A program made the translations under genes and the position numbers. Positions 20,889 to 33,009 of a DNA stretch of 33,009 bases are shown here, one piece after another. The DNA is from an uncultured Erysipelotrichaceae bacterium (lineage in GTDB: Bacteria > Bacillota_I > Bacilli_A > Erysipelotrichales > Erysipelotrichaceae). The DNA is taken from assembly GCA_902793635.1 (NCBI GenBank), contig CADBEA010000024.1:1-33009 (forward strand), written 5' to 3'. The notes under the pieces were generated by a model. The model was not told the DNA's origin and did not search any database. It saw only the letters and a list, made by a program, of their open reading frames with translations. The number at the start of each line of letters is the position of its first letter. Position 1 is the stretch's first letter.

Positions 20889-21491
20889 CTATAACCATCT
20901 GACATTTGCGGAAACCGCATAAATACACACTTTTCCGGCCTTCCTGCCAAGTGCCGCAAGAGCTCCCAGCGTCGTCGCTCCGGTCGTGATGGTATCATCA
21001 CACAGCAGGATCTTTTCCGGCAGCTGAACACCGTCCTTCAGGGCAATGTAATCCCGCATGGCAAGACGTTCCTCACGGCCCAGATGTTTCTGATCCTGAT
21101 CAGCCACTTTGACAAATGGTTCAATCATTGGCATCTTCAGACAGGCAAACATCAGACGCAGATGGCTGAAACCGCGGCGGTTTGTTTTCTCTTCGCTGCT
21201 GGGCAGCAGACACAGTGTATAGCCACGGTAGCGAAAGCGCAGCCGGCTGACGACCTCATACAGAAAAACGTCCTGCAGAGCTTCATCATTCAGTTCCTTG
21301 AACTGAATCAGGCAGCGGGAAAAAGCGTCGTTGTATACATAGGAACTTTCCACCGGCACACCGTCAAGCCGGAAACGGATGTGTTTCTTCCGCCACTGGC
21401 TGCGGCAGTTCTCACAGAGCGGATCCTGCGGATCGAACAGGTCACGGAAGGTTCCTTCATCACGGCTTTTGCCGCACATCAGACAGCGCAT
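20889..21491 (-). CDS. comFC: ComFC-like phosphoribosyltransferase-fold competence protein
   Basis: The 200-residue protein starts with a four-cysteine zinc motif (CLMC at 3-6, CENC near 26-29). It ends with the PRPP-loop ILLCDDTITTGATTLGA of the phosphoribosyltransferase fold. This is the ComFC/GntX pattern; ComFC acts with ComFA in DNA uptake during transformation. It overlaps the 3' end of the comFA remnant by 13 bp and would normally be cotranscribed with it. Because comFA is cut by the element upstream, comFC now has no obvious promoter of its own. Confidence 0.9.
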   Translation of the reverse strand: MRCLMCGKSRDEGTFRDLFDPQDPLCENCRSQWRKKHIRFRLDGVPVESSYVYNDAFSRCLIQFKELNDEALQDVFLYEVVSRLRFRYRGYTLCLLPSSEEKTNRRGFSHLRLMFACLKMPMIEPFVKVADQDQKHLGREERLAMRDYIALKDGVQLPEKILLCDDTITTGATTLGALAALGRKAGKVCIYAVSANVRWL

Positions 21492-22165
21492 GCGTTCGCC
21501 TCCCTGAGGGAAGCGGCACAGCGTTCCGCCTTTTCACTGCGCCGCCGGCAGAGAAACAGCACGTCCCCTTCCGGATACGCGAAGACCCGTCCCACCCGGC
21601 CGGCCATCTGAACCAGTCCCGCTTCATCAAAGATCCGGCTGTCCGCCTGAAAGACACAGACCTGAACATTTTCAATCGTCAAACCCCGCTCCATCACAGT
21701 CGTGCACAGCATCACGCCGTTTTTCTTCTCTTTGAATTTCCTGATTACTTCATCCCTGTTTTCGGTGTGACTGGTGCACAGACAGCACGAAAAGAATACC
21801 GACAGGAAATAATACAGATATTGGGCTTTTCTGATCGACGGCACAAACACCATGCAGGACTGTCGGCGGTGCTTCCGCAGCCACTGGATCAGTGAGAAAA
21901 ACATGATCTTATCCGGAACGACTTTAATTTCCGGAACCGGTAATGGGTGCCCGTGCGGTCTTCGGTTCAGAACGAGACGGATCAAAGTTCCCTCTTTTTC
22001 CTTTTTCAGCAATTCCTGATCCGGTGTGGCACTCAGACAGATCATATGCCCTTTCCGGCAGGTTTCGGCAATGCCGTGCAGCACCTCATTGCCGCGGAAG
22101 GGAAACGCGTCCGGCTCGTCCAGAATCAAAAGATCGAACGTCCGGTAATAGCGGTAGAGCTGATG
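21479..22165 (-). pseudogene. comFA: comFA 3' remnant, interrupted by a mobile element
   Basis: The leftward frame from about 22165 reads HQLYRYYRTFDLLILDEPDAFPF, the Walker B/DExD region of ComFA. It then shows LSATP (motif III), TTVMERGLTI (motif V) and QMAGRVGR (motif VI) to the natural stop at 21479. The zinc-binding N-terminus and Walker A half are missing. Upstream of HQL the frame runs into mobile-element DNA and contains no ComFA sequence. A TTG at 22129 could start a 216-residue fragment but has no ribosome site. ComFA is the helicase-like ATPase that pulls single-stranded DNA into the cell, so transformation by this route should be lost while the element is inserted. Confidence 0.88.
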
Positions 22166-22180
22166 CCTCTTCTTTATTAT
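22160..22180. other. Element/chromosome junction (attachment-site half)
   Basis: ComFA homology (HQLYRYY) ends at about 22165 and the recombinase frame reads straight through the junction for about 26 codons of out-of-frame comFA DNA. The exact crossover dinucleotide cannot be fixed without the other end or an empty site. Confidence 0.6.
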
Positions 22181-22736
22181 CTATATGCAATTCAACACCC
22201 TCACTGTTCCATACTGGGTGCAATGCTTTTTTGCGTCGGCGATCCTCTTTAAACCCACTTCCGTCAATACTTCTTTGAGATCCCCCTTTGAAAACAAAGG
22301 TAATTAAGTAAGGATCTGGTTCTCCGTTCGTATAACCACCCACAAGTATCGTTTCCACAAGAAGGTCAAATATTTCCGGACTAAATGATTCTAGACATTC
22401 TGAACCACTTAATACTTTTTTGAAATCATCTATGCTTCTGAAACTGTCTTCTTGACGTTTATAGGCATTTTTGAGATTTTCTTCCTCTTCTTTTAGTCTC
22501 TCCAGTTTCAGGATGTTTTCCTGCCGTTTCGCTTCATACTCATCATTATTGATTTTTTCTTCCATCAATAGGTCAATCATGCGCAGATTTCTGTCAGTAA
22601 TATCTTTTTGTTTTTTACGGTTTTCTGCTAATTCTGCATTAATGTCCGTATGGAATATAGCTCCCTTTGATGATTCTATAAGATCGATTATGATCTCATT
22701 CTTTTCTTTCACAAGTTTGTTGAAGCATCCATACTT
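22166..22736 (-). pseudogene. C-terminal fragment of a large serine recombinase
   Basis: The open frame (from the stop before 22736, GTG at 22712) encodes a long charged coiled coil of about 90 residues. A compact tail follows with FDLLVETILVGGYTNGEPDPYLITFVFKGG, the pattern at the end of Tn4451/TnpX-type large serine recombinases. The N-terminal catalytic resolvase domain and zinc ribbon are absent; upstream is only 88 bp before the coupling-protein stop. A seven-codon ORF (MDASTNL) behind GAGGTG overlaps the GTG as GTGA, so a fragment could still be translated. Its position against the comFA junction is where an element's integrase normally sits. I consider it inactive alone. Confidence 0.72.
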
Positions 22737-22793: not shown

Positions 22794-22808
22794 GGGGCAA
22801 ATTGCCCC
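22794..22808. repeat. Element palindrome copy 1
   Basis: GGGGCAAATTGCCCC, extended to 17 bp by flanking C/G. It lies 15 bp after the coupling-protein stop, between that gene and the recombinase fragment. Confidence 0.9.
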
Positions 22809-22823
22809 GAATACTTGTTTCTG

Positions 22824-25298
22824 TTATTTCTGTTCCTTCAATGAAGTATTTTGCAGATCATAGTATGCAGACTTCTGCTTTTCTGAGCAATCAGGTTCTT
22901 TTGCAACGTCTGTTTTCGGCTCGATCTTTTCTTCCTTCACATAAAATGCAGCAGTACTCTGCTCTTTCACCTTTGCTGAGTGCCTCAGGTCGAAATACGG
23001 TACATGTTTCATTTGCCGGCTTACCGCAATATCCCCCTTTGGCATATCCGGATAGAAACAGTAGTCCCGGTATCCCAGTAGCCTTGTCAGAACCGGATTC
23101 TTACGCAGCTGAATAATCAGTGCTTCACCCATGGACAGTTTCGACAGCCGCTCAGTCGATATGACTGCCCGTTCGTCATATCTGCCCTGTTCTTCGTTCC
23201 AGATCAGTCTCTTCCCTGCTTTTTCAGACACTGTTTTGAGTGTATCCGGATCTCCGCCCATCAGATAGGCAAAGTTCTGCATATTATTCATCAGTGTATG
23301 CGCAACTTCCTTGCCATATCTTCGTTCCAGCTGTGATGTATCCTGGACTGCCAGGGTCAGCCGGAAGCCGGCAGACGCACCAAAGCTGACCATATTATCA
23401 ATGCTTTTGAGGGATGGCATGATACCTGCTTCATCGAAGATGCAGTTCACAGGATATGGCATCCTGCCTCCGCATTCTCTCGCCACAGACATTGCTTCCT
23501 CATACATCTGTTCAATGAACATTGACACAAACGGATAATACGTTGATTTGTCACCGTGGACTATGATGAATACCGCTGTTTTCTTTCTGGCAATATCCTT
23601 CAGATCAAAGGTGGATCGGGAAGTCATCCGCATGACAGATTCACTCATCGTCATCATCCGGCTCTTATCCGAAAAGACAGAGTCAATGGATCCTTTGGTC
23701 GGCCCCGGTGCTGCCGCATACTGTGCCAGGCTGGTAACGGATTTATCTGTCGTATTCCGGTATTTCTTCAGATACTCGGCTAGCAGCGTATTCCCGCGCT
23801 TGTCGACTGCTTCCGCACCGGCCATCGCGACCTGTTTGATGGACTTGAAGTGGATCAGATCCTCCTTAAGCGGCATCTGATCACCGGTGTCCGGATCTGT
23901 TACCGTCTCTTCTAGAAGAAGATTCGCGTATCCGACGATCAGCTCCCCTGCCTGCGAATTCCAGAACCTTCCGTTCGCGTCTTTCTCATCAAACGTCATG
24001 ATGTTGGCGATATCCTGCAAAGCTTCCTGTGCGGCAGATGTATCCAACTGCGGAGCGTCATCCATAATACTGTTGATCTCATTGATGATCCGGTTTCTTT
24101 CTGCATCATCATGTTCAGTTTCCAGCCGGTGATGCAGCTCCTTCAGGTATTCGTCATATTCCCTGTAATAGGCATTCAGACTATCTTTGTGTGTCTTCTG
24201 TGCTTCACGGTATTTGCTGATGGCAATCCCGAGAGGATTCCAGCAGTCTCCCTTCTCCGGATTGATGAAGTCAAGGAAATAGACATCATACCCATCTTCA
24301 ATCAGCTTTTTAACATGTGTCTCCTTCAGTTCACCCTTCGGATCATTAATTACCATGGATTCGCCTGTCATCCGCAGCAGATCGATCATGATGCTGATAA
24401 TACTGTAGGATTTGCCGGCGCGTGTGGTTGCTACGATCATGCTGTGGCAGTCGGCGGCATTCACATACACCCGATTCCTGTAGGTGATGACAGGAAAGCC
24501 ACCTCGCCGTTTCACCGGCTGTCCTCCGATCATATACTTCTGCTTTGTATTCATCTTATGAACGTCAGAAAGCTTCAGTTTAGTAACCAGTCTGTTCCAG
24601 AACCACTTTGGCGGATCGAACACATCATCACAGTAATCCCTCAGATGCATCCGCAGCATCCGCTCTCGCATGATATACGGACTGCATCCGGACCAGTCCT
24701 GATGGATCAGGCTAAACACATAACCGACCATCACAAACATTACTGCCGTAAAACAAAGATGGTACAGTGATCCGATTAGCTCCTGGACTGCAGTCGGATC
24801 AGGACTCGTTCCCTGAATGCTCATAAACCCGAGTTCCCACAATGAACGGATTCCGTAAAACAGCACACAGATGATCTGCCGAACCCCATAAATGGCAAGC
24901 AGCTGACCGATCAGTATCTCCGGTTTCTCATAATCCACATTGCACAGGTGCCCGCTGGAATCGAATTCCAGCCTGGTCAGTCCCTTCTTCGCTTCATGCA
25001 GACGGGCAAGATGTTTATAGTTACGGTGCTCATCCAGGGTCAATGACCTCTTCCTGTTCTTCCCCTTCCTGCTTTTTCGGATGAACTGGTTATAGAAGAT
25101 ATCCAGGATGAAATACAGCGCGATCCCGTTCAGCAACAGGAAGTAATCCCAGTTGCCGGTAAAAAAAAGAAGACCTGCATCAGCACTGAATGCCAGTGTC
25201 CGATACAGGTAAACATATGCCACCTCAATACCCAGCCAGTAAACCACAGCCAGTACAGATAATGACAGCAGGAAAAAGGTAACTGTCTTCTTCACCAT
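22824..25298 (-). CDS. VirD4/TraG-type T4SS coupling protein
   Basis: This 824-residue protein has four predicted membrane segments in its first 200 residues (about 5-32, 50-68, 130-152, 172-200). A VirD4-type ATPase follows, with Walker A ATTRAGKS at 290-297, the NDPKGEL motif at about 318-324, CIFDEAG (Walker B) at 619-625, and the sensor region LAVQDTSQLERRYG. It links the relaxosome to the type IV channel and energises DNA transfer at the membrane. ATG 25298 starts one base after the relaxase stop, so expression is coupled. The C-terminal 40 residues are charged and unconserved, typical of relaxosome-contact tails. It is full length with no frameshift. Confidence 0.93.
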   Translation of the reverse strand: MVKKTVTFFLLSLSVLAVVYWLGIEVAYVYLYRTLAFSADAGLLFFTGNWDYFLLLNGIALYFILDIFYNQFIRKSRKGKNRKRSLTLDEHRNYKHLARLHEAKKGLTRLEFDSSGHLCNVDYEKPEILIGQLLAIYGVRQIICVLFYGIRSLWELGFMSIQGTSPDPTAVQELIGSLYHLCFTAVMFVMVGYVFSLIHQDWSGCSPYIMRERMLRMHLRDYCDDVFDPPKWFWNRLVTKLKLSDVHKMNTKQKYMIGGQPVKRRGGFPVITYRNRVYVNAADCHSMIVATTRAGKSYSIISIMIDLLRMTGESMVINDPKGELKETHVKKLIEDGYDVYFLDFINPEKGDCWNPLGIAISKYREAQKTHKDSLNAYYREYDEYLKELHHRLETEHDDAERNRIINEINSIMDDAPQLDTSAAQEALQDIANIMTFDEKDANGRFWNSQAGELIVGYANLLLEETVTDPDTGDQMPLKEDLIHFKSIKQVAMAGAEAVDKRGNTLLAEYLKKYRNTTDKSVTSLAQYAAAPGPTKGSIDSVFSDKSRMMTMSESVMRMTSRSTFDLKDIARKKTAVFIIVHGDKSTYYPFVSMFIEQMYEEAMSVARECGGRMPYPVNCIFDEAGIMPSLKSIDNMVSFGASAGFRLTLAVQDTSQLERRYGKEVAHTLMNNMQNFAYLMGGDPDTLKTVSEKAGKRLIWNEEQGRYDERAVISTERLSKLSMGEALIIQLRKNPVLTRLLGYRDYCFYPDMPKGDIAVSRQMKHVPYFDLRHSAKVKEQSTAAFYVKEEKIEPKTDVAKEPDCSEKQKSAYYDLQNTSLKEQK

Positions 25299-25299
25299 A

Positions 25300-27081
25300 T
25301 TATCTTGTCCTCCGTGAGAGTGTCTTCTGATTGTTCAGATATACCTCGATCTCATTCTCGATCCTTCCCTGAAGATGATGGATCTTTTCATCGTTATGCA
25401 GATATCCGGATATCTCATTTCCAACAGAGCGGCTTTGAAAATGTCCCCACATTGACCTGGCAACCCTCGCTCTCTGCACCTCATCGAAAGCTTTCGGATT
25501 ATGGCTGTCCAGATAATCAACTGCCGGCTGAAACCCATGAACAGCGGATGAGATCAGACAGCGATACCCTCCTTCTTTATCCCGTTCGGTTCGCTTTCCG
25601 TAAATCATTTCGATGCCCAGCATATACTCGGAGACACCGTCTCCGTTCGCCATACCGGCATAGAGAGCGTTCATCCCTTCAGTAATCTCCTTTCTGGCAA
25701 AACATATCTTAGCCATCAGCGGATAGGAATGTATTGATCCTTCTTCTATGGCTTTCAGGCAATGCATCTTCGCAAGATTCAGATTCCTGCTGGTTCCTTC
25801 TCCGAAGAATTCCATTTGGGCCAGTTTGTGATGAATACAGGCTGCAGTACGAGGATCACAGTCAGAGTTGAGTATTTCCTCATACCGATAGTAAATACCG
25901 TCAAAAATGGCCTTATTCGGCCTCTGAGAGGACTCCAGAGCTTCGCGGTGTTCCTTTCTGAGATCCTCATACTCTTTATGGATCACTTCAGACCTGCCGC
26001 TTCGTTCCTTATCCTCTGTTTCATCCATCCAGCTGACCAGCTGCCTGCCGCTTACCCAGGATCTGTATACCGGACGGTCCTGAAACTTTCGTATCTCTCT
26101 GAGGATGATATTGCCGATCTCAGAGTGCAGCTTCTTCAGTTCTGTCTTTCGGATCGTGCTTTCATCCGCATCATTTTTCATTGCCTGATCCAGCGGGTCC
26201 AATGCGCGGAGATAATCTTCATACGCTTTTTTCAGATGATCCGACTGCAGCAGCTGATCCGTGATCCTGTCAATGCTTTCACGGTATGGAAGTATATTGT
26301 AGGAACCGTACTGCATTCTGCCGGATCTTGGCAAAGCTGCCGCAAGCGCCTTGATACTGTCGATTTTGCTGAAATCAACGGTATGCAGCGCCTCCATCAT
26401 CTCTTCCTTTTCCTGATCCTTCAGCCGGAACTGTGTTTCATAATCATTCCCGGTCAGTTCCCTGATGGTCTCTCTTACCGTCATCTCCTTGGCGATGATC
26501 TGTTTCAGTGTCTTCAGCTGTTTTTCAGTAAATGATCCTTTATCCCGGGTATGGATCTTCTCCATAAAGACAACATGCATATGCGGATGTTTCTTATTGT
26601 TGTGGTAATCCATCCACCAGATCATGTTCTGCGGATCAAAGCCCACTTTTCTGAAAAACTGCGGCAGGATCTTCTCAATCACTGCTGCGTAATCCGCCTG
26701 ATGATACAGGTGATTCTTATGGGCTTCTTCATAGGATTCCATGGAAATTACCATATCCCAGATCAGATCCCCGGGCTTGTTGAAGGCAGCGGATCCTATC
26801 CTTCGCAGTTCTTTTCTCTTTTCCGGAGTCAGTACACCGATCGAGGAGACTGTGGATCCGGATGCCGCTCCTTCTCTTGCGGTATAGCCAATAAAGCCAT
26901 CCTCAAACAGTGTGAGCTGATCCTTGATATTCTCCTCGACCGCATCCTTTCTGCCGGTATAGTCCATATAGCCGTTGTATCCAAAAATCATTTTGTCATT
27001 CATGATTCCCTTGAATCTGGAATTCTTCGGTGCCTGCTTTCCCCATTCAAAGAAACGGATGGTATCAATGATCTTCGGCAT
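25300..27081 (-). CDS. MOBP/MobL-type relaxase with Sel1-like C-terminal repeats
   Basis: The 593-residue protein has a YMDYTGRKDA motif at about 38-47 that probably holds the nicking tyrosine. The metal-binding histidines are in HNNKKHPHMHVVF (His160, His165, His167, His169). This matches the MobL/MobP3 relaxases of Bacillota elements. Residues about 400-550 contain helical Sel1-like repeats (KMHCLKAIEEGSIHSYPLMAKICF, ALYAGMANGDGVSEYMLG in shortened form). The relaxase would cut at oriT and stay bound to the 5' end. It overlaps the upstream 80-residue gene by 17 bp and has only a weak ribosome site, so translation is likely coupled. The nic sequence at 31698-31705 fits a MOBP enzyme. Confidence 0.88.
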   Translation of the reverse strand: MPKIIDTIRFFEWGKQAPKNSRFKGIMNDKMIFGYNGYMDYTGRKDAVEENIKDQLTLFEDGFIGYTAREGAASGSTVSSIGVLTPEKRKELRRIGSAAFNKPGDLIWDMVISMESYEEAHKNHLYHQADYAAVIEKILPQFFRKVGFDPQNMIWWMDYHNNKKHPHMHVVFMEKIHTRDKGSFTEKQLKTLKQIIAKEMTVRETIRELTGNDYETQFRLKDQEKEEMMEALHTVDFSKIDSIKALAAALPRSGRMQYGSYNILPYRESIDRITDQLLQSDHLKKAYEDYLRALDPLDQAMKNDADESTIRKTELKKLHSEIGNIILREIRKFQDRPVYRSWVSGRQLVSWMDETEDKERSGRSEVIHKEYEDLRKEHREALESSQRPNKAIFDGIYYRYEEILNSDCDPRTAACIHHKLAQMEFFGEGTSRNLNLAKMHCLKAIEEGSIHSYPLMAKICFARKEITEGMNALYAGMANGDGVSEYMLGIEMIYGKRTERDKEGGYRCLISSAVHGFQPAVDYLDSHNPKAFDEVQRARVARSMWGHFQSRSVGNEISGYLHNDEKIHHLQGRIENEIEVYLNNQKTLSRRTR

Positions 27082-27307
27082 TCACGTCTTCTTTCTCCCC
27101 ACTGCCGTTCAGTTCATTCTCAAGAAGACTCATCTTGCGCTGAAACTCTTCTTCGATCCTAACCGCCTGACGAAGACTCCTTTCCAGCAGGATCTTCTCT
27201 TTCCTGCGTTCCTCAAGTTCCTGTTTATTTAAAGCCATCTCTGCATTCAGTTCTTCGATCCGCGCCGTTGTCTTTTTCAGACGTCTGGCAATATCCTCGC
27301 TGTTCAT
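27065..27307 (-). CDS. Small coiled-coil protein, probable relaxosome accessory
   Basis: Almost the whole 80-residue protein is one charged amphipathic helix (residues about 3-68) with heptad-like leucines and many Glu/Lys/Arg. No catalytic motif or membrane segment is seen and I cannot name the family. It begins within an ATGA overlap with the upstream gene's stop and overlaps the relaxase start, so it is made in step with the relaxase. Small coiled-coil proteins in this position often help relaxase loading, which is an inference from context. Confidence 0.75.
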   Translation of the reverse strand: MNSEDIARRLKKTTARIEELNAEMALNKQELEERRKEKILLERSLRQAVRIEEEFQRKMSLLENELNGSGEKEDVNAEDH

Positions 27308-27618
27308 ATGATCCAGCCCTCCTCATATACAAGCTCATCATCATTCAGATATTCGATCCTGACCGGTTCTTTTTCACCGTTCTGCATCGGGACCAGTTCT
27401 CTGCGGAGTTCATCTATAATTCCAGAATCGGCTTTGTTCAAAAAGCCTCCGATAAAGGATTTTGCCAGCAGATTATCCATCAGATCCGTCACGACGGTCT
27501 CATTCCACCGGTTGGTCATGATAAAAGACGCGATATTCTCTATCGTTCCTTCAAAAAAGACAGCGTCGCCGTGATAACCGTTGCTGTCATATACATATCC
27601 AATTACAGTTTCCTTCAT
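27304..27618 (-). CDS. Hypothetical protein of the transfer operon
   Basis: I took ATG 27618 (104 residues) because it forms an ATGA overlap with the stop of the PcfJ-like gene. The longer in-frame extension is just that gene in another frame. The protein looks like a small alpha/beta domain starting ETVIGYVYDSNGYHGDAVFF, with an acidic C-terminus (LNDDELVYEEGWII). I do not recognise it. It sits between the PcfJ-like protein and the relaxase accessory, with four-base overlaps on both sides. Confidence 0.72.
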   Translation of the reverse strand: MKETVIGYVYDSNGYHGDAVFFEGTIENIASFIMTNRWNETVVTDLMDNLLAKSFIGGFLNKADSGIIDELRRELVPMQNGEKEPVRIEYLNDDELVYEEGWII

Positions 27619-29438
27619 ACACCACCCAGGACATATGCGTTCTGTCCTGCCACATAATCTTCTATACACTGTCGCATCGCATCCTGAACCATTGGATGAT
27701 CCTTCCGGTAGTCTTCCATCCATTCCTCAATCAGATCGTAGTCACTGACTTCCAGCAGATGATCGTATTCCAGTTCCTCCGCTATCTTCTGCAGCTGCGG
27801 TACAAGATTATCTCCATGATCCGGCAACTCAACAGATCTCTCAGCTTTGGGGCAATTTGCCCCAAGCATCTCCTGAATACTATGGAAATGATTCTTTTTC
27901 TTCTCCTGGATCAGCCCCATCCACCGGTCCAAGAAGTCCGACTGCGCCTTATCGTGTACCGGCTGATTGAATGCCAGGTATTTCTGACGGATCACGTCAC
28001 ACTCCGGATTGATTTCAACCGTGATCAGAGATTTTTCGGGATGTGCTGTTTCTCTCATGACATAGATCAGTGACTGATGGTTGAGGATCCTCTGTCCATA
28101 GGAACCAACGCAGTTGCGCTGTTGCTTCGCCTCATCGATCAGATCTGTGTGATTCCGGATACCGCGAATAAAGAAAACATCTTCCGAATAATCATTCTCC
28201 GAAAGATATTCACAGGCATGTTCCATTTTCTTTTCCATGATCTCATCGCGCTTCTCACGGATCGTCCTTGCGGTCACATCGTGTTCCCGTTTCAGGCTGT
28301 CCGAATCAATGCGTGGTTTGATTTCAAGCTGTTCACACATCGTCAGGTAATCATTCAGCAGCGGGAACGCTTCTCTGGCAGTGATTGCCTGAAAGGTATC
28401 CAGTCTCTGCAGATAGTTCATCAGTGTACTCCACGTAAAGACAGGTTTCCCCTCATATTTCCGGTTCAGGATGGAATTTACGGTCTTCATGTCTTCGGCA
28501 TCGAAATGTGCCCAGTATGCCTGCTGTATCGTATCCTTTGACAGTTTTCCGGTCTTGGCCATTTTCCGGTACACATCCCATATATCCAGATCCGTTTCAC
28601 CACGAAGCGTCGTATAGACATCCTTGGAAGTCTTGAAGATATTCTTTAGCTTTGTTCCGGGCTGTGTCAGACGGTTAAACGCGTCGATCTCCTTAGACTG
28701 TCTCCAGAACCCGCGGATCCCGCTCTCCGCAAAGTCATAACCTGCTTTCACCAGCTGCTCCAGCTGCGGACAGGTAAAGAAATACAGCGGATTCACACAG
28801 TCATACTGTTTTGCGGTTTCCTTTGCATAGGGATTCGTCTTCTCCAGGATCTCCCATAGCTTCAACTGACTGTTCAGCAGCATGTACGAGCCCGGTTCCG
28901 GATACTTGGCATACACCTTCCATTTGCTGGTCTCCAGTTTCTGCAAGGTGATCGGCTGATCAAAATCGATCAGTTTTCCATCATCATAGTCTCTGGTTGC
29001 CTGATAAGAGACATACAGCATGGAATTGAAATGAAGTGTGATCTTGTTTGACCACGGCACACCGTTCTCATCCACGTAAATTATTACGGTCGAAAGATCC
29101 TTCTGCGAAGAAGGCAGTTCAAGACAGTTCATCTCTGATCTTGTTCTTCTTTCAGATACCATCAATCGATTCTTTATAGCTACTGCACACACATTGGATC
29201 TCCATCCGGCTGGGATTCGGATCAGCGGTTCCGGATCCGTAATTCCCTTCAGTCTTGCGGCATGTGTGAAGAAGTCTTCAAGCGTGCTGCTGTTAATCAG
29301 ATTCATCAATGCATCCGGTGGATTCGTTGATTCAGGATCCGCTACACCTTTCAGCACGGATTTGCCAAGCTTGTTCATCTCCTTTGGGGAATCACTCAAG
29401 ATATCAAACAGCGATAACTGTTCTCCAAGTTGTGTCAT
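27615..29438 (-). CDS. PcfJ-like protein of conjugative elements
   Basis: I preferred ATG 29438 (607 residues) since GGTGAAG lies six bases upstream; an ATG four codons earlier is possible. A helical N-terminal half is followed by the PcfJ-type domain around 420-520, with QQRNCVGSYGQRILNHQSLIY in outline, a MRETAHPEKSLITVEI strand and a QKYLAFNQPV segment. PcfJ is encoded with the relaxase in enterococcal pCF10, but its biochemical role is not established. The 15-bp element palindrome lies inside this gene near residue 525 and is translated as GANCPK. It heads the operon continuing through the relaxase and coupling protein, with an ATGA overlap to the next gene. Confidence 0.78.
   Translation of the reverse strand: MTQLGEQLSLFDILSDSPKEMNKLGKSVLKGVADPESTNPPDALMNLINSSTLEDFFTHAARLKGITDPEPLIRIPAGWRSNVCAVAIKNRLMVSERRTRSEMNCLELPSSQKDLSTVIIYVDENGVPWSNKITLHFNSMLYVSYQATRDYDDGKLIDFDQPITLQKLETSKWKVYAKYPEPGSYMLLNSQLKLWEILEKTNPYAKETAKQYDCVNPLYFFTCPQLEQLVKAGYDFAESGIRGFWRQSKEIDAFNRLTQPGTKLKNIFKTSKDVYTTLRGETDLDIWDVYRKMAKTGKLSKDTIQQAYWAHFDAEDMKTVNSILNRKYEGKPVFTWSTLMNYLQRLDTFQAITAREAFPLLNDYLTMCEQLEIKPRIDSDSLKREHDVTARTIREKRDEIMEKKMEHACEYLSENDYSEDVFFIRGIRNHTDLIDEAKQQRNCVGSYGQRILNHQSLIYVMRETAHPEKSLITVEINPECDVIRQKYLAFNQPVHDKAQSDFLDRWMGLIQEKKKNHFHSIQEMLGANCPKAERSVELPDHGDNLVPQLQKIAEELEYDHLLEVSDYDLIEEWMEDYRKDHPMVQDAMRQCIEDYVAGQNAYVLGGV
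27849..27863. repeat. Element palindrome copy 2 (inside the PcfJ-like gene)
   Basis: GGGGCAATTTGCCCC, the inverse-centre form. It is in frame within the coding region between the PcfJ-type domain and the C-terminal tail. Confidence 0.9.
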
Positions 29439-29452
29439 TATCTTCACCATTA

Positions 29453-29491
29453 AAGGGAATGCACATTCATTTCACTGAAGTACATTCCCTT
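29453..29491 (-). promoter_or_regulatory. Leader hairpin before the PcfJ-like operon
   Basis: AAGGGAATGTAC and GTGCATTCCCTT (minus strand) can form a 12-bp stem with one G-U or mismatch around a 15-nt loop, ending just before the start region of the PcfJ-like gene. It may control operon expression; a T run for termination is lacking. Confidence 0.45.
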
Positions 29492-29505
29492 CCCTTTCGG
29501 TCATC

Positions 29506-29565
29506 ACTGCAGATTATTACTCCTGCCTCTGTGGGTTTCATCCAACACTGGCAGGAATCTGCAGT
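29506..29565. repeat. Large two-part hairpin between cargo and transfer operon
   Basis: ACTGCAGATT (29506-29515) pairs perfectly with AATCTGCAGT (29556-29565), and CCTGCC (29522-29527) pairs with GGCAGG (29550-29555). On the right the arms are contiguous; on the left six bases bulge out. The inner loop can form a further five-pair stem. It lies within the 172 bp between the SDR stop and the PcfJ-like start, where no gene is seen. Confidence 0.6.
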
Positions 29566-29585
29566 CATGCCATCATTTCTTCTTT

Positions 29586-29600
29586 GGGGCAAATTGCCCC
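29586..29600. repeat. Element palindrome copy 3 (left flank of cargo)
   Basis: GGGGCAAATTGCCCC, 10 bp after the SDR stop codon. It is in opposite centre orientation to the copy at 31026, so the SDR/TetR pair is bounded by an inverted pair. Confidence 0.9.
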
Positions 29601-29610
29601 ATAAGTCATT

Positions 29611-30366
29611 TTATTTTCCCGCACAGAATCCACTGTCAACCGGAATAACTGTTCCATTGATGAAGGAAGAATCTTCTTCAAACAGGAACGCCACAACTCT
29701 GCCGATCTCCCATGGCATGCCAAGCCTTCCTGCGGGGTTAGAAGCGGCCCATTGTGCATAGATCTCCGGAGCTGTCTCCTTATACGGAGCCACAAGCTCT
29801 GTTTCAATCGTACCGGGAGCTACAGCATTAACAGTGATATTCTGCTTTGCCATATCCAAGGCAACACCCTTTGTCAGACCAACAATGGCGTGCTTACATG
29901 CGTTATACAGTGCCATACCGGTCGAACCTAACAGGCCTGCTCCGGAAGTCGTATACACGATCCTGCCAAACCCGTTTTCTTTCATCATCTTGATCTCTTC
30001 GATCGTGCAGATCATGTGGCATTTCACGAGGATACCAAGTTCTTTGTCGATCTCATCTTCCGTCACTTCTTCGAAAGACTTCGGCAGGATTCCAAAACCG
30101 GCATTGTTGAACGCACAATCCAGTTTCCCAAATGTATCCTTTACATACTGAAAACTCTCGATAATCTCTTTTGAGTCAAACAGATTACAGTGTCTGTAAT
30201 ATGTCTTTCCCCCGATGGAGTTTGCTTCTGCAATAACATCATCAGCTTTTTCATCCTGAATATCGAAGATGACTGTTGTATAGCCTCTTTTGGCAAGTTC
30301 CATTACTGTTCCTTTGCCGATACCGCTTAATCCGCCTGTAACTACTGTAACTCTATTGTTTTCCAT
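29611..30366 (-). CDS. Cargo short-chain dehydrogenase/reductase
   Basis: The 251-residue classical SDR has TGGLSGIG at 10-17, NNAG at 87-90, catalytic Ser141 and YNACK with Tyr154/Lys158. The PGTIETEL block follows and a C-terminal GTVIPVDSGF is the usual strand before the end. Asp35 at the end of strand two suggests NAD(H). The substrate is unknown. ATG 30366 follows AGAGG. It is divergent from a TetR-family regulator with a perfect palindrome between them, so it is most likely the target of that regulator. It is unrelated in detail to the chromosomal SDR at 74-835. Confidence 0.92.
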   Translation of the reverse strand: MENNRVTVVTGGLSGIGKGTVMELAKRGYTTVIFDIQDEKADDVIAEANSIGGKTYYRHCNLFDSKEIIESFQYVKDTFGKLDCAFNNAGFGILPKSFEEVTEDEIDKELGILVKCHMICTIEEIKMMKENGFGRIVYTTSGAGLLGSTGMALYNACKHAIVGLTKGVALDMAKQNITVNAVAPGTIETELVAPYKETAPEIYAQWAASNPAGRLGMPWEIGRVVAFLFEEDSSFINGTVIPVDSGFCAGK

Positions 30367-30392
30367 TTTTCTCTACCTCTTTGCCAATACAA

Positions 30393-30411
30393 TATCAACA
30401 TATTGTTGATA
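30393..30411. promoter_or_regulatory. Palindromic operator between SDR and TetR genes
   Basis: TATCAACATATTGTTGATA is a perfect 8-bp inverted repeat with a 3-bp centre; one more flanking A/T pair extends it. It lies in the 108-bp divergent intergenic region, 27 bp from the SDR start, and a half-site (TATCAAC) recurs near 30449. It is the probable site of the adjacent TetR-family protein. Confidence 0.65.
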
Positions 30412-30474
30412 TAATAACCATCAGTTAAGATTATTTGGCTTGTTTATCAACGCTTTGAAAGGAAATGTCGATTT

Positions 30475-31020
30475 ATGGAAAACAGACGATCAAAAATCAC
30501 AAAGAAAATGATCAAGGACGCACTGACCGAGCTTCTGGAAAAAGAAGAACTCCGATTCATCTCTGTTCGCATGCTGTGCGAACTGGCAGATCTGAACCGC
30601 AGCACTTTTTATCTTCATTACGAAACAATGGATGACCTGTTGGCAGAGTATACAGAAGATCTGATGAAAAATGTATGGACAAGTGATTCCATAAATCTGA
30701 GTGAGAAAGACTATCAGAAAACACTAAAATATATTTTAGATCATCAAGCTTCCTATAAAGCACTATTGAAATCCGGACTTTATCACAGATATATTCTTTC
30801 AGAATACGGAAAAATAGATTTTGAAAATAATGCAGCCCTAAAGAACACCGACCAAGAAGCCTTTATGCTGATGAGCTCTTACGCAGTATCCGGTATGGAG
30901 CAGATGATATTGTATGTTTTAGAACACCCCGAAATCTCTGTTTCAGCAGAGGAACTGGCAAGAGTTATGTATCAAATGAATGCTTTTAGCTATAAACAGA
31001 TTCAAGTACTTTCGCGCTGA
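30475..31020 (+). CDS. TetR/AcrR-family transcriptional regulator
   Basis: The 181-residue protein has an N-terminal helix-turn-helix of TetR type at about 8-55, with ISVRMLCELADLNRSTFYLHY spanning helices 2-3 and the conserved FYxHY. A helical ligand-binding C-terminal domain follows, resembling the TetR_C_8 type common in Bacillota. The gene is visibly more AT-rich than its neighbours, suggesting separate acquisition. It is divergent from the SDR gene and ends six bases before palindrome copy 4. It probably represses the SDR gene and itself; the inducer is unknown. Confidence 0.88.
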   Translation: MENRRSKITKKMIKDALTELLEKEELRFISVRMLCELADLNRSTFYLHYETMDDLLAEYTEDLMKNVWTSDSINLSEKDYQKTLKYILDHQASYKALLKSGLYHRYILSEYGKIDFENNAALKNTDQEAFMLMSSYAVSGMEQMILYVLEHPEISVSAEELARVMYQMNAFSYKQIQVLSR

Positions 31021-31025
31021 TATAT

Positions 31026-31040
31026 GGGGCAATTTGCCCC
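31026..31040. repeat. Element palindrome copy 4 (right flank of cargo)
   Basis: GGGGCAATTTGCCCC, five bases after the TetR stop and seven bases from the end of the convergent ribbon-helix-helix gene. Confidence 0.9.
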
Positions 31041-31047
31041 AAGCCTG

Positions 31048-31506
31048 TCATCCGATGATCGTCTCCGATTCATTCTCCGGCTGGATCACCTTCAACTCCC
31101 GTGCCACCTTCTCCGGGATCAGCAGATCCCATGGCATCGTCATGTACAGCAGATTCTCCACACCATCCCTTGCCCGGTCAATGTTCAATCCCTTGCACAG
31201 CAGTCTCATATATTCCCTGGACTCCCTCGACAGCATGTTGATGGTATTGTTCGAACGGATCAGTGCCGACATGTATTTCCGGAACACATGTTCAATCACC
31301 TTTTCCAGTCGCTGCATATACGGATCGCTCCACTGGTCCGCCAGCATCGCCAGATAATAACTCTCGATCGCCTCATTGATGATCTCGGATCTGCCTTTTG
31401 CTTTTCTGTTCATCTTCTCCGCCTTTTCCGTATCCATCTCCTGCAGATGCTTCAGCATGCTCCTGACATCCTCATTGATCCTGAAGGCTATGACTTCCCT
31501 TGCCAT
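31048..31506 (-). CDS. Ribbon-helix-helix protein, probable oriT-binding accessory factor
   Basis: I chose ATG 31506 (152 residues); the longer frame would translate the palindrome and has no better ribosome site. The N-terminus REVIAFRINEDVRSMLKHLQ fits a beta-strand plus helix of the MetJ/Arc fold, completed by the GRSEIINEAIESYY helix at about 40-53. The C-terminal 90 residues are helical and unknown. Its gene lies directly beside the predicted oriT, transcribed away from it, the arrangement of NikA/TraJ/MobC-like accessory proteins that bind the oriT repeat arm. The GTAATAC repeats upstream are candidate sites for autoregulation. Confidence 0.72.
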   Translation of the reverse strand: MAREVIAFRINEDVRSMLKHLQEMDTEKAEKMNRKAKGRSEIINEAIESYYLAMLADQWSDPYMQRLEKVIEHVFRKYMSALIRSNNTINMLSRESREYMRLLCKGLNIDRARDGVENLLYMTMPWDLLIPEKVARELKVIQPENESETIIG

Positions 31507-31533
31507 ATCTATTCTTTCATCATCCTTTCCTTT

Positions 31534-31548
31534 GGGGCAAATTGCCCC
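31534..31548. repeat. Element palindrome copy 5
   Basis: GGGGCAAATTGCCCC, 27 bp upstream of the ribbon-helix-helix start codon. Confidence 0.9.
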
Positions 31549-32286: not shown

Positions 32287-33009
32287 TTACGGGCCGTACA
32301 TTCCCTCCAGGACAGCGCCATAAGAATTCAGAAACGCCTGGAAACTGCTGAACTTTCTGACTCTGAAGCCATAGGAATTGGCCGCCGTCGCGTTGCATTC
32401 GCTGATCAGAACCGAGCCGTCTGCCCCTACGCCTTCAATAAAAACAGCATGCCGCACTGATCCAAAACGAATCGAGGCGATCGACTGCGGGATCGGACTG
32501 TTCGGGTCTCTGGAGTAAGTGCCGCTGCCCGGAGAGACATGATCGATGGCCACGAGCTGGTTCCAGTTGTTCGGCAAAGGGAATCTTCCGTCCGGATTGT
32601 TCACTTCCCAGAAGCGCCCGGCGGCATAACTGGAGCAGATCATCTTGTTCCACTTGCCTGTGATCGAGGCGATCAGACATCGGTCATACGGCCAGGCGAT
32701 GTGGTTATTGGCGTCACAGACACATGGATTGCCATGGATCCCATCAGGATCGAAGCAGTAATACTTGCTGTCGAAGTCGATCACAACACCTTCCATCTCC
32801 ATGATTCCGCCCGGCTGGATATCTCCGGGATCCTGTCCCTCTTCACCGCCACCGTGAGGATGGTCGTATGTATCACCATATTTCCAGGGATGTGAAGTCG
32901 CAAACAGCAGCATCGGATTGAAGTACCGTTCGGCACCTTCATCAAGGAAATATGTCTTCACTGACACTTCATCAGAGAAGCCGAGGATCTCATTCTGTTC
33001 CAGTTCATC
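32287..33009 (-). CDS. CHAP-domain cell-wall hydrolase, partial (start outside the window)
   Basis: The frame is open to the right edge, so only the C-terminal 240 residues are visible. The last 120 residues look like a CHAP amidase/endopeptidase. The nucleophile cysteine is in KMICSSYAAGRFWEV, the histidine in VRHAVFIEGV and the third polar residue in LISECNAT, with the typical end YGFRVRKFSS. Upstream is a Gly/Asp/His-rich stretch (HPHGGGEEGQDPGD) and a DFDSKYYCFDPDG segment. In conjugative elements of Bacillota such enzymes open the peptidoglycan for the T4SS. No signal peptide or anchor can be judged because the start is missing. Confidence 0.75.
   Translation of the reverse strand, partial: DELEQNEILGFSDEVSVKTYFLDEGAERYFNPMLLFATSHPWKYGDTYDHPHGGGEEGQDPGDIQPGGIMEMEGVVIDFDSKYYCFDPDGIHGNPCVCDANNHIAWPYDRCLIASITGKWNKMICSSYAAGRFWEVNNPDGRFPLPNNWNQLVAIDHVSPGSGTYSRDPNSPIPQSIASIRFGSVRHAVFIEGVGADGSVLISECNATAANSYGFRVRKFSSFQAFLNSYGAVLEGMYGP

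Follow-up and report, generated by a model that had tools for sequence, protein, structure and literature searches.

Why should a 15-bp near-palindrome recur five times within a single mobile element, and what reads it? This is the question raised by the window, the whole stretch of 33,009 nucleotides (contig C24 of an uncultured Erysipelotrichaceae bacterium) that was analysed here.

The palindrome and the element that carries it

All five copies of GGGGCAAWTTGCCCC listed in the initial annotation were recovered as exact matches, with A or T at the centre according to the strand, and their gene contexts are broadly those it had described, namely gene ends, the region before a gene start and one position within codons (Table 1). 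The arms of the palindrome are often longer than in the 15-mer, taking the form CTTGGGGCAA-N-TTGCCCCAAG. With up to three mismatches allowed, 10 matches were observed compared with 1.08 in dinucleotide shuffles, which is far above chance as had been claimed, and for the 21-bp extension TTTGGGGCAANTTGCCCCAAA the corresponding numbers (again with up to three mismatches) were 5 observed and 0.00 expected. The 22 kb of chromosome in the window contain zero copies of GGGGCAAWTTGCCCC, and none occurs in the 78 contigs that make up the rest of the assembly (79 contigs, 2.43 Mb); a reversed control pattern gave 0 matches in the scan of the same assembly. Taken together, the shuffles and the own-genome scan rule out a chance or compositional repeat, and the spread over the host chromosome that had been held out as possible counter-evidence was not found. 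The earlier view that the copies are not terminators also stands: an intrinsic terminator, consisting of a GC stem and a T run, was considered and rejected because no T run lies 3' of any of the five copies.

For the reading frame of the RHH-like protein, neither Pfam nor PADLOC gave a match and NCBIfam gave no credible one, and PADLOC detected no defence genes among the scanned proteins of the window's element. When the relaxase was used as query, no close relative was found in the genome contigs, plasmids yielded only about 24% identity and phages yielded nothing. At the element end a comFA-like gene is apparently split (window positions 21479-22712), its helicase C-terminal half being followed directly by the serine-recombinase-like remnant; it looks as if the element had inserted into a competence gene.

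Table 1. Features of the window's element, in order of position
Feature	Position	Strand	Evidence or context
Serine-recombinase-like C-terminal remnant at element end	22086..22712	-	by eye; no Pfam match
Palindrome copy 1	22794..22808	+	after virD4, before recombinase remnant; exact match
VirD4-type coupling protein, CD1115-like	22824..25298	-	PF02534 1.3e-42; NF045973 5e-60, below curated cut-off
MobL/MobP3-type relaxase	25300..27081	-	PF18555 3e-18; NF041499 5e-37, below curated cut-off
PcfJ-domain protein	27615..29450	-	PF14284 1.1e-15
Palindrome copy 2	27849..27863	-	within pcfJ-like gene, codons G-A-N-C-P; kept in L246 and L250
Palindrome copy 3	29586..29600	+	intergenic, between SDR gene (cargo) and pcfJ-like gene; cargo-slot boundary
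SDR oxidoreductase, cargo	29611-30366	-	Pfam
Cargo SDR and TetR	29611..31020		flanked on either side by a palindrome (copies 3 and 4)
TetR-type regulator, cargo	30475-31020	+	Pfam TetR_N, below its gathering score
Palindrome copy 4	31026..31040	-	between convergent ends of tetR and RHH-like genes; other cargo-slot boundary
RHH-like (MobC-type accessory) protein, 152 aa	31048..31506	-	RHH-like N-terminus by eye; homologues in L246, L250 and G093
Palindrome copy 5	31534..31548	+	28 bp upstream of RHH-like start codon (31506), just 5' of Shine-Dalgarno
CHAP-domain protein, transfer region	32287..32967	-	PF05257 1.7e-4, below gathering score

Palindrome dialects and ParB loci in related elements

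GGGGCAAWTTGCCCC is one element-specific version, or dialect, among many. Within the window's genus it is absent from 58 of 70 genomes, and genome G126 carries 18 copies; 17 of these lie between 563,055 and 588,067, within a single 25 kb element (element A). Element A is an integrative conjugative element (ICE) encoding ParA, ParB, an ArdC-type antirestriction protein, a VirB4-type ATPase, an RHH-like protein, a MobL-type relaxase and VirD4, and its relaxase and VirD4 share 39% and 38% identity with their counterparts in the window. The same chromosome harbours three further elements, B, C and D, in which GGGGGCGAAACGCCCCC is dominant with 9-12 copies each; this palindrome also occurs in 7 copies in an element of genome G194. 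C and D (G126:C1, 1538-1562 kb and 2325-2354 kb) are nearly identical inverted copies of one another. The ratio of A-type to B-type copies is 17:1 in A, 1:12 in B and 0:9 in C and D, and the lone B-type copy in A stands in front of a gene with 97% identity to its counterpart in B. At one spot where elements A and B have near-identical flanks, the palindrome is either TTGGGGCAAATTGCCCCAA or TTGGGGGCGAAACGCCCCCAA, both arms having been switched jointly, and at two places element A has GGGGCAAATTGCCCC and the G194 element has GGGGGCGAAACGCCCCC. It is evident that the palindrome sequence varies between elements and is (almost) uniform within one. Erysipelotrichaceae conjugative elements with ParA and a divergent ParB, many of them drawn from fragmented assemblies, carry palindromes of the same build (arms of 7-10 bp, centre mostly of 1-4 bp), mostly 2-17 per element. 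Single palindrome copies are also present outside recognisable elements, and when viral contigs were scanned with the bare 15-mer there was one site per stretch among the matches listed.

Loci were found by profile searches with ParB-like proteins across the family and the order, and repeated palindromes were then called de novo in their vicinity. The palindromes obtained include TTTGGCATGA-N-TCATGCCAAA (10 copies), AATTGGTATGA-N-TCATACCAATT (7-11), ACATGGACA-N3-TGTCCATGT (9), TGTGGCAA-N-TTGCCACA (5), GTGGTAG-N3-CTACCAC (5), GTAGCAA-N-TTGCTAC (3) and AACGTGGAAA-N-TTTCCACGTT (2), besides others. A repeated palindrome was called at 17 of 40 ParB loci, whereas none of 120 Markov shuffles and none of 5 chromosomal stretches yielded one; the remaining 23 ParB-like loci, mostly more distant ones, gave none in this de novo census. 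The copy nearest to parB lay within 350 bp in 20 of 23 loci, which is an upper estimate since the palindromes of C42, G305C43 and G304 were recognised partly by their nearness to parB, and within 35 bp in 14 of 23. Five loci of one genus (G181, G136, G305, G300 and G304) have only one or two copies, adjoining or just downstream of parB; in one group there are just two, which lie 3-6 bp past the stop codon of parB and roughly 250 bp further on. This is the layout of a plain, classical centromere, and elsewhere the site has spread to 10-17 copies.

Profile comparison places the protein family within the ParB fold: its profile matches solved ParB (4umk, 9e-15), Noc (1e-9) and Spo0J (4e-9), and the CTP-pocket motif G-x-R/K-R is present as GHRR, GERR or GHKR. 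A single ParB protein scored 21.1 bits against PF02195, below the gathering score of 26.3. The AlphaFold models of ParB (pLDDT 61, from a 2-sequence alignment) and of the RHH-like protein (pLDDT 48) are of low confidence and too poor for use, and fold searches with the former, which listed no ParB, are uninformative either way. In element A the ParA gene (AAA_31, 1e-39) lies directly upstream of parB, and adjacent ParA and ParB homologues are found in B, C, D, G031 and the two stretches L242 and L249.

The latter two came from the opposite direction, a blind scan of genome contigs with nothing but TTGGGGCAAWTTGCCCCAA as query. Almost all of the 11 stretches retrieved belong to gut bins of Solobacterium, Erysipelotrichaceae or other Firmicutes, and two of them, L242 and L249, encode a ParA (51% identity to that of A) and a ParB (39-40%), with the palindrome 32 bp past the parB stop codon. 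Element A has the very same helix segment, TGISDGTVK (recognition helix ISDGTVK), and the same palindrome as well. Since their G+C content (0.465) is near that of the window's element (0.463) and unlike that of A (0.354), L242 and L249 may represent the par region of an element of the same type as the window's. The cognate ParB of the window's element would in this way be assigned through relatives with an identical palindrome.

The window contig ends at position 33009, and no ParB with an ISDGT helix was found in the window's own assembly. The sole ParB fragment there, on contig C42, has the helix ISDGSV and the palindrome GGTGCAAGTTGCACC nearby. Along this contig (L193, G000:C42, 1-2100) the ParB fragment is followed by GGTGCAAGTTGCACC before a ribosome-binding site and then by a recombinase-like C-terminus, the G+C content being 0.40 at the element end compared with 0.51 beyond. 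Contig C42 is probably the end of a second element in the same genome; the idea that it forms the other half of the window's element is unsupported because the palindrome differs.

Specificity, site placement and alternative readings

The recognition helix of ParB tracks the palindrome. Among 11 odd-centred site types, the residue preceding the conserved V/I of the helix is T or S where half-site position 2 is T (7/7), and Y or F where it is C (4/4), an association between helix residue and half-site base with a Fisher p of 0.003; even-centred types were left out of this table as their register is uncertain. Helix distance and site distance are likewise correlated (Mantel r 0.37, p 0.006). It should be underlined, however, that the N-terminal domain of ParB correlates with site distance to a similar degree (r 0.43 versus 0.40 for the helix; partial r for the helix 0.37, p 0.014), and shared descent therefore contributes to the helix-site correlation. 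A simpler scheme with only two palindrome types and two helix types proved wrong, as G031 combines a B-like helix with a dialect of its own.

On these sequence comparisons, the palindromes are very probably parS-like sites, comparable to KorB operators, that are dispersed over the members of an ICE family with genes for ParA and a divergent ParB. Of the roles suggested in the initial annotation, the centromere-like and the regulatory one are favoured, given that copies adjoin parB in relatives and that the recognition helix tracks the palindrome, whereas nothing was found in support of packaging or replication control.

The placement of the sites bears on whether they act as DNA or as RNA. In 12 elements, 69 of 97 sites are intergenic versus 17% expected at random, and 39 of 97 are followed by a start codon at a distance of 10-40 bp, versus 3% of random and 14% of random intergenic positions; genes were called by a simple script for this purpose, and single assignments are approximate. 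The excess just 5' of start codons would also suit an mRNA stem-loop before the ribosome-binding site that tunes translation or stability, perhaps via an element-encoded RNA-binding protein. However, the sense-strand centre may be A or T, AAA or TTT, within one element, so that the loops differ and the duplex site stays the same, and the occurrence of both orientations relative to the gene favours a duplex-DNA site. Moreover, the identity of copies within an element exceeds what structure alone demands, copies are also found between convergent genes and inside codons, and the half-site is tracked by the helix of a DNA-binding protein, all of which makes the hairpin quite improbable. Copies are kept at homologous places in the related elements L246 and L250, a conservation whose lack the initial annotation would have counted as refutation, including the codon-internal copy in the pcfJ-like gene, where the alignment is 75% identical. 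Other coding-region copies (L145 4266-4549; L140 1183-1198 and 12590-12605) lie within linkers of low complexity in secreted or membrane proteins, where the peptide shifts with the dialect (GQIAP versus GGETPP).

A different reader of duplex sites would be the RHH-like protein itself, acting as autorepressor and relaxosome accessory. Two copies flank its gene in the window, L246, L250 and the G093 remnant, and at the last of these no ParB was found. Yet B, D and G194 have one dialect in common and differ in their RHH strands (RIDIRV, EIHFRA and RLQIRV), which makes such a reader less likely; several elements have copies beside parB only, and elements A and L242 share both ParB helix and site. 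We consider this reading highly improbable. The G093 locus (L146 10030-10640; G093:C12:16030-16631) consists of an RHH-like gene between two copies amid housekeeping genes (lysS, dnaC-like), and with no other element genes seen nearby it is a remnant or solo unit.

The palindromes also bound a cargo slot, which is occupied by SDR and TetR genes, by two SDR genes and MerR, or is empty. In L246 and L250 one palindrome separates the RHH-like from the pcfJ-like gene and there is no cargo, whereas in the window two palindromes (copies 4 and 3) enclose SDR and tetR genes that are absent from these relatives, and it is precisely at the second palindrome that the alignment with them starts again. The corresponding slot of G260 (L254) contains two SDR genes and merR between two copies (names given by eye from translations). 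Such precise boundaries, together with the B-dialect copy in A and its nearly identical downstream gene, could be taken to mean that the palindromes are recombination joints, that is, module or cargo boundaries for gene exchange and not protein-binding control sites. This would leave unexplained the copy beside parB, the helix-site correlation, the in-place dialect conversion and the conserved codon-internal copies, and we give it hardly any credence. Most likely, the cargo junctions at palindromes are a consequence of such sites lying between genes.

Proposed function and known systems

If the palindromes are parS-like sites, a ParB dimer would, as the sequence correspondence suggests, read both half-sites through its helix-turn-helix. 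By analogy with KorB, Noc and NAH7 ParB, a CTP clamp may load at every site and then slide along the element, and the resulting ParB coat could be used for partition of the excised circle as well as for silencing of transfer and cargo genes, as KorB of RK2 does. The relatives have the ParABS traits of a ParA gene directly before parB, a ParB fold with the CTP-pocket motif and an inverted repeat near parAB, and the elements have the KorB-type trait of multiple dispersed sites (5 in the window, 17 in A, 9-12 in B, C and D). The system most likely derives from ParABS, with dispersed sites, and would work like KorB. A broader proposal, possible though on balance unlikely, is that a private ParB-parS dialect of each ICE marks most of its gene modules, partitions and silences them, keeps co-resident elements separate and provides joints for cargo, which is then re-marked in the dialect of its new owner.

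With at least a dozen putative ParB-site specificity pairs in a single protein family, these elements form a natural series in which the evolution of ParB specificity can be tested directly. They would also extend KorB-style control of a whole element to integrative elements in Firmicutes of the gut, and they suggest that several related elements can coexist in one chromosome through different dialects and that palindromes frame the cargo slot. Searches of the open-access literature turned up no account of sites of this kind in such elements, nor of a dialect series or of cargo boundaries; KorB of RK2 and NAH7 ParB are the precedents.

Several known systems resemble the one proposed here in part. 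Noc-NBS and Spo0J-parS of Firmicutes have in common with it the ParB fold and short palindromes at many sites, and their specificity is set by few residues of the DNA-binding domain (PMC7383237), but they are chromosomal, with one conserved site sequence per family and without a link to mobile elements. BisD of ICEclc is, according to the accessible parts of PMC7423338 and PMC12704722, a ParB-like regulator of transfer competence in Pseudomonas and thus likewise a ParB-like protein of an ICE; in those parts, unlike here, dispersed element-specific sites were not found described. In NAH7 (IncP-9), ParB binds parS and activates T4SS genes, and inverted repeats (six in that case) are spread over the conjugative plasmid, some near transfer genes (PMC12421886); NAH7, however, is a Pseudomonas plasmid with few sites and no dialect series. 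A parallel is also drawn with KorB of RK2 (IncP-1), whose operators OB are dispersed palindromic sites for partition and gene silencing (PMC11790492), 12 binding sites being named in a title which that source cites. Both are ParB-family proteins of conjugative elements with many dispersed palindromic sites, but RK2 is a Gram-negative plasmid, whereas the present sites belong to Erysipelotrichaceae ICEs, lie mainly just before ribosome-binding sites and would serve a putative regulation by a distinct, divergent ParB, with a site sequence of its own in each element.
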